DNA of 64,000 nucleotides from assembly GCA_016192075.1 (NCBI GenBank), contig JACPUU010000006.1, positions 1 through 64,000 of the forward strand, written 5' to 3'. The notes beneath the pieces were generated by a model. That model saw only the letters and a program-made list of their open reading frames with translations. It was not told the DNA's origin and made no database searches. The stretch is from Bacteroidota bacterium. Lineage in GTDB: Bacteria; Bacteroidota; Bacteroidia; Flavobacteriales_D; Crocinitomicaceae. Shown in pieces: positions 23,943 to 25,102 of the stretch. The first letter of the stretch is position 1. Each line of letters begins with the position of its first letter. The position numbers and the translations under genes were made by a program.

Positions 23943-23986
23943 ATTGTTCTGTAGGGGATGGTCGCGACCATCCCCTATAGAACAAT
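23943..23986. repeat. 44-bp near-perfect palindrome at the murG-murC junction
   Basis: Arms ATTGTTCT-TAGGGGATGGTC mirror each other around GTCGCGAC with one G/T mismatch (a GU wobble in RNA). It covers the last 12 bases of murG, including its TAG stop, and the spacer before murC. It looks like a dispersed palindromic element and could act as an mRNA hairpin within the operon. Confidence 0.9.
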
Positions 23987-25102
23987 TAATTTTTCAATTT
24001 CTTTTAATATTCTGTCCGGCGCATCTGCAATGGCCAGTTTTTTTATGTTGCCTGAAAGATCACTGCACGTTTTGGAATCTTGCAGCAACGCAATGGTTTT
24101 ATCAACCAGCTGATTTTTTGCATCCACATCTTTTACCAGTATAGCCGCATTTTTCTGCACCAACGCCATGGCATTTTTGGTCTGATGATCTTCTGCCACA
24201 TTGGGAGACGGAACCAGGATAACGGGCTTACCCACCAGGCAAACTTCTGAAACAGAAATAGCGCCGGCACGTGATACAATGATATCTGCCGCAGCGTATG
24301 CGAGATCCATTTCATAAACAAAATCAGAAAGGTAAACCTGTTTGCAAGGGGCGGAAAATCTTCCGCCCCTTGCAAACACATCCACATCATTTTTTAATTG
24401 ATCAAAATAAATTTTGCCACATTGCCAGATCAGCTGAATGCCGGCATCCATTAATTTCTGAAGGTCTTTTTTGAAACTCTCATTCAACGTGCGTGCGCCC
24501 AGGCTGCCGCCAATAATAAGTACGGTTTTTTTGGAAGGATCGAGGTTAAAATGTGCCAGGGCTTTTTCTCGTTTCCCTTCAATATCCACCATTTCCATAC
24601 GCACCGGGTTACCGGTCATCACAATTTTTTCTTTGGGGAAAAACCGGTCGAGGTTTTCATAGGCCACACAAATGGTTTTAGCACGTGATGCCAGCCATTT
24701 ATTGGTAATTCCGGGATACGAATTCTGCTCCTGTATTAACGTTGAAACCCCCATGCGTGAAGCCACACGCAAAGTAGCAGCACTGGCGTAACCGCCAACA
24801 CCAATGGCAATCTGCGGTTTAACCTCTTTGATAATTTTTCGGGCTTTGCGCAAACTTTTCCAGAGCTTAAACGGAAACGATAAATTCTCAAGTGTAAGTT
24901 TGCGCTGTAATCCGCGAATGGGTAAACCCACAATTTTATAACCGGCCTTTGGAACTTTTTCCATTTCCATTTTTCCCTCGGCCCCTACAAAAAGTATTTC
25001 GCAGGCAGGGTACACTTCTTTTATTTTGTTGGCAATGGCTACCGCCGGAAAGATGTGTCCTCCCGTACCGCCGCCGCTTATAATAACGCTATTCAATGAC
25101 AT
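23975..25102 (-). CDS. murG: UDP-GlcNAc:undecaprenyl-P-P-MurNAc-pentapeptide GlcNAc transferase
   Basis: Makes lipid II from lipid I at the cytoplasmic membrane face. The 375-residue GT-B enzyme has the lipid-binding loop SGGGTGGHIFPA (9-20), GVGGYASAATL near 105-115, and the donor-site region AAADIIVSRAGAISVSEV. A perfect 18-bp-arm palindrome lies inside the frame and encodes part of residues 242-255 (FARGGRFSAPCK), a stretch not expected in the family. The frame is intact, so the enzyme is probably functional. The stop lies in a second palindrome. The gene overlaps ftsW by 14 nt. Confidence 0.95.
   Translation of the reverse strand: MSLNSVIISGGGTGGHIFPAVAIANKIKEVYPACEILFVGAEGKMEMEKVPKAGYKIVGLPIRGLQRKLTLENLSFPFKLWKSLRKARKIIKEVKPQIAIGVGGYASAATLRVASRMGVSTLIQEQNSYPGITNKWLASRAKTICVAYENLDRFFPKEKIVMTGNPVRMEMVDIEGKREKALAHFNLDPSKKTVLIIGGSLGARTLNESFKKDLQKLMDAGIQLIWQCGKIYFDQLKNDVDVFARGGRFSAPCKQVYLSDFVYEMDLAYAAADIIVSRAGAISVSEVCLVGKPVILVPSPNVAEDHQTKNAMALVQKNAAILVKDVDAKNQLVDKTIALLQDSKTCSDLSGNIKKLAIADAPDRILKEIEKLIVL
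24339..24378. repeat. Perfect palindrome inside murG
   Basis: Left arm 24339-24356 (TGTTTGCAAGGGGCGGAA), loop AATC, right arm 24361-24378 (TTCCGCCCCTTGCAAACA). All 18 base pairs are Watson-Crick. It adds an in-frame peptide between two conserved MurG blocks. Confidence 0.95.

Follow-up and report, generated by a model that had tools for sequence, protein, structure and literature searches.

In-frame REPs within genes have been published, and that publication counts the Rickettsia elements RPE-4/6 among such intragenic REPs and classes them with the CGTC REPs (Di Nocera 2013, PMC3733652). In TnpAREP subclass 2.4, in-frame REPs are found both flanking and inside the tnpAREP gene, between its HUH and Y motifs (Quentin 2018, PMC6006769). 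The mechanism by which REPs spread is described as unresolved in the literature (PMC8266576). Here, we describe a palindrome within murG that very probably belongs to these elements.

The murG gene (UDP-GlcNAc--lipid I GlcNAc transferase; positions 23975–25102, minus strand) lies in the window, the 64-kb stretch of DNA analyzed here, and its 375-aa ORF was matched by the Pfam domains Glyco_transf_28 and Glyco_tran_28_C and by the MurG entries 7d1i, 1f0k, and 3s2u in the PDB. A hairpin scan of the window returned five strong inverted repeats, one of which was a palindrome inside murG at 24339–24378 (unstranded, like its parts below), with 18-nt arms (24339–24356 and 24361–24378) that are 100% complementary around a 4-nt loop. 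The preliminary description had claimed a perfect palindrome with 18-bp arms at this place, encoding residues 242–255, and both statements were confirmed. The core of the palindrome did not occur in dinucleotide shuffles. A second near-perfect palindrome (ATTGTTCTGTAGGGGATGGTCGCGACCATCCCCTATAGAACAAT, 23943–23986) lies between murG and murC and overlaps the stop codon of murG; no further copy of its core was found in the genome within three mismatches, and it therefore lies outside the core family of murG.

When the MurG protein was aligned with those of 28 relatives in its family and order (the nearest with approximately 75% protein identity), it alone had a net gain of 8 aa (24 bp) exactly at the palindrome, as in LKNDVDV-FA-RGGRFSAP-CKQVYLSDF here versus LKPEVEQ-LN-TDLIYLSDF in a relative. 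The expectation that other MurG proteins would be shorter was thus borne out, the insert being missing from all 28, and the observation that would have spoken against an insertion, namely conservation of this peptide where the DNA is not palindromic, was not made in this alignment. The MurG sequences of E. coli (1f0k) and 7d1i also differ in length at this place, which therefore tolerates indels. For the protein, the insertion is probably neutral. The assignment to a loop rests on the sequence alignments, the single-sequence AlphaFold model being poor (mean pLDDT 43.8). The murG DNA of the relatives was too diverged to tell the ancestral arm, and because even the nearest share only the protein identity given above, we infer the pre-insertion murG DNA.

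The unit that recurs is the palindrome's central 24 bp, AGGGGCGGAAAATCTTCCGCCCCT on the plus strand (24347–24370), and not the full 40 bp. It corresponds to MurG residues 245–252 (RGGRFSAP; coding strand, AGGGGCGGAAGATTTTCCGCCCCT), its length is a multiple of three, and it contains no stop codon in any reading frame. The 40-bp palindrome was considered as the mobile unit and rejected because the copies do not share the 8 bp at the outer end of either arm: the left arm TGTTTGCA (24339–24346) is the perfect complement of the right arm TGCAAACA (24371–24378) and is absent from the other copies. The 22-bp core GGGGCGGAARATYTTCCGCCCC, framed by (A)…(T), had 11 exact matches in the 4.65-Mb genome, against none for the reversed control pattern. 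Of these copies, eight lie in intergenic DNA, murG holds one, and the remaining two fall within a single ORF, the RAYT gene on contig C15, where one copy has a C at the R position of the pattern; copies with one or two mismatches are also present, as are degenerate copies such as those at C2:426055 and C6:14159. Outside the RAYT genes, eight of nine exact copies are therefore intergenic, with murG as the exception. In the genome search suggested by the preliminary description, the core thus proved to be dispersed, but murG was the only non-transposase gene among the exact hits. As expected of a REP, the core is a short palindrome with several near-identical, mostly intergenic copies in one genome. 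The foot of the GTAG-REP superfamily was lacking from the murG copy, which reads GCAAGGGG; GTAGGGG was present in only 1 of the 11 copies, the one beside the C15 RAYT, and most copies read AAGGGG. At C12:176627–176837, a related tip, GGCGGATAATTATCCGCC, is present three times at close spacing.

Two RAYT genes in the genome carry the core. The C15 RAYT (C15:21383–22171, 263 aa; also L351:1878–2672) reads FIIMPDHVHGIIEIVGAEHLPPQ...GSIVRGFKIGVTKWVR...VWQRNYYEHII...YIRQNPEKW and contains the core in frame between its HUH and Tyr motifs, together with degenerate copies in tandem, and has a further, perfect copy 58 bp upstream. The C2 RAYT (C2:418878–419513) likewise has the core in frame, with another copy 12 bp away. 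Copies of the core thus flank both Y1/HUH tyrosine transposase genes, as in a REPtron. Both proteins matched NF047646, the REP-associated tyrosine transposase, at E values of approximately 1e−13 (1.8e−13 for C15), with scores below the curated NCBIfam cut-off (approximately 50 of 80 bits). Both matches were split into two stretches because the in-frame insert interrupts the RAYT, and Pfam Y1_Tnp, tried alone as a RAYT detector, failed to pick up the cognate RAYTs because their domain is divided by the in-frame palindrome. An in-frame REP between the HUH and Y motifs, the arrangement of subclass 2.4, was found in the C15 and C2 genes and also in the RAYTs L384, L385, and L396 of Fluviicola. The WQ motif of that subclass is present in both (VWQRNYY...YIRQNPEKW in C15 and VWQRNFW...YIESNPKNW in C2), and the Y motif, compared by eye, is near the consensus YIxNNP. 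The tandem 17-residue repeats of the C15 RAYT (VEHLPPQTPVDTREINE) resemble expanded, degenerate in-frame REP copies. Degenerate tandem peptide repeats (AATKDG) also occur between the HUH and Tyr motifs of a RAYT at C1:80462–81232 (L344), and the RAYT on C20 (L352, C20:42500–45500) is situated among seven copies of a different REP, GCGCGAGCGTCCCGCTCGTGC. Given the published arrangement of subclass 2.4 and the REPs known in unrelated genes, an intragenic REP is the best reading of the murG palindrome, and we consider it very probable that murG acquired a RAYT/TnpAREP-associated REP copy by in-frame insertion in this lineage.

Across 200 genomes from this bacterium's family, the core was found only here and in eight species of one genus, Fluviicola. 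Nearly all Fluviicola copies lie approximately 20–40 bp after a stop codon, at terminator positions, with A-rich and T-rich arms, and their foot is mostly GTAGGGG...CCCCTAC. In one genome of the genus (G118), the core stands upstream of a related RAYT and a slightly shorter form of it downstream. The upstream part of a RAYT ORF in another Fluviicola genome (G029; L386, 2111–2156) overlaps a different long palindrome, AACCCTTGTGGTTGCCC...GGGCAACCACAAGGGTT. The core of these terminator-like hairpins, together with the high stability of the murG palindrome when folded as RNA (−41.8 kcal/mol, z = −9.3), would suit a functional element under selection in murG, such as an mRNA hairpin that attenuates or stabilizes the mur operon transcript. 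However, the murG hairpin is not followed by a T-run, lies in the middle of a gene within the mur cluster, and is present in 0 of the 28 aligned relatives, so that selection for such a function is a very unlikely explanation.

Constancy is limited to the inner 24 bp or so. The flanking arms vary from copy to copy, yet within a copy they are perfectly complementary to each other. Across the 11 copies, the same-copy complementarity was 5–13 nt (mean, 9.45), whereas left arms paired with the right arms of other copies gave a mean of 1.75 nt and a maximum of 6, and none of 20,000 random arm pairings reached the observed total. Besides the murG pair, TGTTTGCA/TGCAAACA, examples are GCGTAAGTA/TACTTACGC on C17 and GATATAATAA/TTATTATATC on C2. 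We found no description in the literature of a constant core within copy-specific, mutually complementary arms. In the unrelated REP family GCGCGAGCGTCCCGCTCGTGC around the C20 RAYT, some copies have complementary arms (9, 9, and 11 nt) and others only 1–4 nt; the one distant copy, at C4:71866, has copy-specific complementary arms of 11 nt. In unrelated hosts, such as uncultured Mediterranea, the core mostly has only a GTA/TAC foot and no long arms, and long arms are therefore not an automatic result of the core.

Such arms raise the alternative that a quasi-palindrome in murG was made perfect locally by template switching during replication, with no mobile element. The outermost 8 bp on either side are particular to this locus and perfectly symmetric, which is what template switching would produce, and in the homologous Fluviicola insertions L388 and L396, different arms surround the same tip and are perfect only in L396. 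Against a local origin, the central 22 bp are identical in the eight intergenic and the RAYT-internal copies and cannot have arisen by local events at so many places, and the added length is missing from the relatives. Template switching can explain the arms at most and is refuted for the core by its dispersed copies; as an account of the whole palindrome it is barely credible. Ordinary length variation of a MurG loop, palindromic by chance, has a precedent in the MurG structures that differ in length at the same place, but is refuted by the genome search (11 cores against 0 for the reversed control) and has a negligible probability.

If the murG palindrome is an inserted REP, the candidate HUH/Y1 transposase at C15 or C2, or a lost relative, may have mobilized the hairpin as single-stranded DNA. 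Insertion would have taken place at the center of TGTTTGCA^TGCAAACA, a short inverted repeat, and/or hairpin-templated (template-switch) repair may later have made the flanks perfectly complementary. It is conceivable, though we hold it only tentatively, that the core is inserted, or its tip swapped, specifically at the center of short inverted repeats that were already present, terminator stems among them; with insertion at such centers, each copy would be a constant palindrome nested in a locus-specific one. The Fluviicola RAYT L387, which has no element, reads TATTCA-GT-TGAATA at the place homologous to ATTCAGTCGGGGCGAATAATTATTCGCCCCGACTGAAT of L384 (ATTCAGTCGGGG...CCCCGACTGAAT). Even when empty, this site forms a short inverted repeat, which suggests that existing palindromes receive the insertion at their center. 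From these sequences, the comparison of L387 with L384 would favor pre-existing repeats, and terminator stems would offer ready arms, whereas one tip with perfect arms in L396 but not L388 would favor later template-switch correction. The single empty example in L387 could alternatively be the scar of element loss. Orthologous sites in sister Fluviicola species vary: some have similar outer arms around a different tip, some keep the tip but pair the arms differently, and others have an ordinary terminator; one site has the tips GGAAAATTTTCC, GCGATTAATCGC, and AGAAAATTTTCT, and in a pair with flanks approximately 98% identical, the tip and left arm differ but the right arm does not. A constant 24-bp core within copy-specific complementary arms would be the footprint of an insertion or repair step, and the differing perfect arms may help to show how such elements choose their sites. 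If insertion occurs at existing palindromes, it would represent structure-guided target choice by TnpAREP elements.

The closest known system is TnpAREP subclass 2.4 (Bertels RAYT group 4, PMC6006769), with which this one shares its occurrence in Bacteroidota, a RAYT gene flanked by REPs, long and nearly symmetric “double foot” palindromes, and a patchy distribution. It differs in that most copies (AAGGGG...CCCCTT) lack the GT[AG]G/C[TC]AC foot of the subclass, the outer arms are copy-specific and perfectly complementary, and the copy number (approximately 10) is low compared with REP-rich genomes. The intragenic GTAG and CGTC REPs of Di Nocera 2013 (PMC3733652) are likewise short in-frame palindromes in the coding regions of housekeeping genes and are thought to be tolerated in loops; the host here is murG, whereas the text of that paper stresses genes for DNA repair or replication and RNA modification. 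The Rickettsia palindromic elements (RPE), to which the preliminary description had compared the palindrome, are also in-frame palindromic repeats in protein genes. The likeness is by analogy only, but the comparison holds in kind because RPE-4/6 are counted by Di Nocera 2013 as intragenic REPs; the CGTC REPs, the class of RPE-4/6, are reported to occur without a RAYT, unlike the core here, which has a resident one. The Fluviicola copies share the position and arm composition of Rho-independent terminators, in contrast to the intragenic murG copy without a T-run. The proposal of a class of protein-tolerated mobile palindromes stands as to the in-frame insertion at an indel-tolerant place in MurG and the dispersal of the core, but not as to novelty: REPs in genes and in their own RAYT are already published, and the class is therefore a known one. 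As murG is expected to be essential, the palindrome shows that such a gene can carry an insertion of this kind, and it is a further instance of a known phenomenon, REPs in genes, of which the nested-palindrome structure is the distinctive feature.
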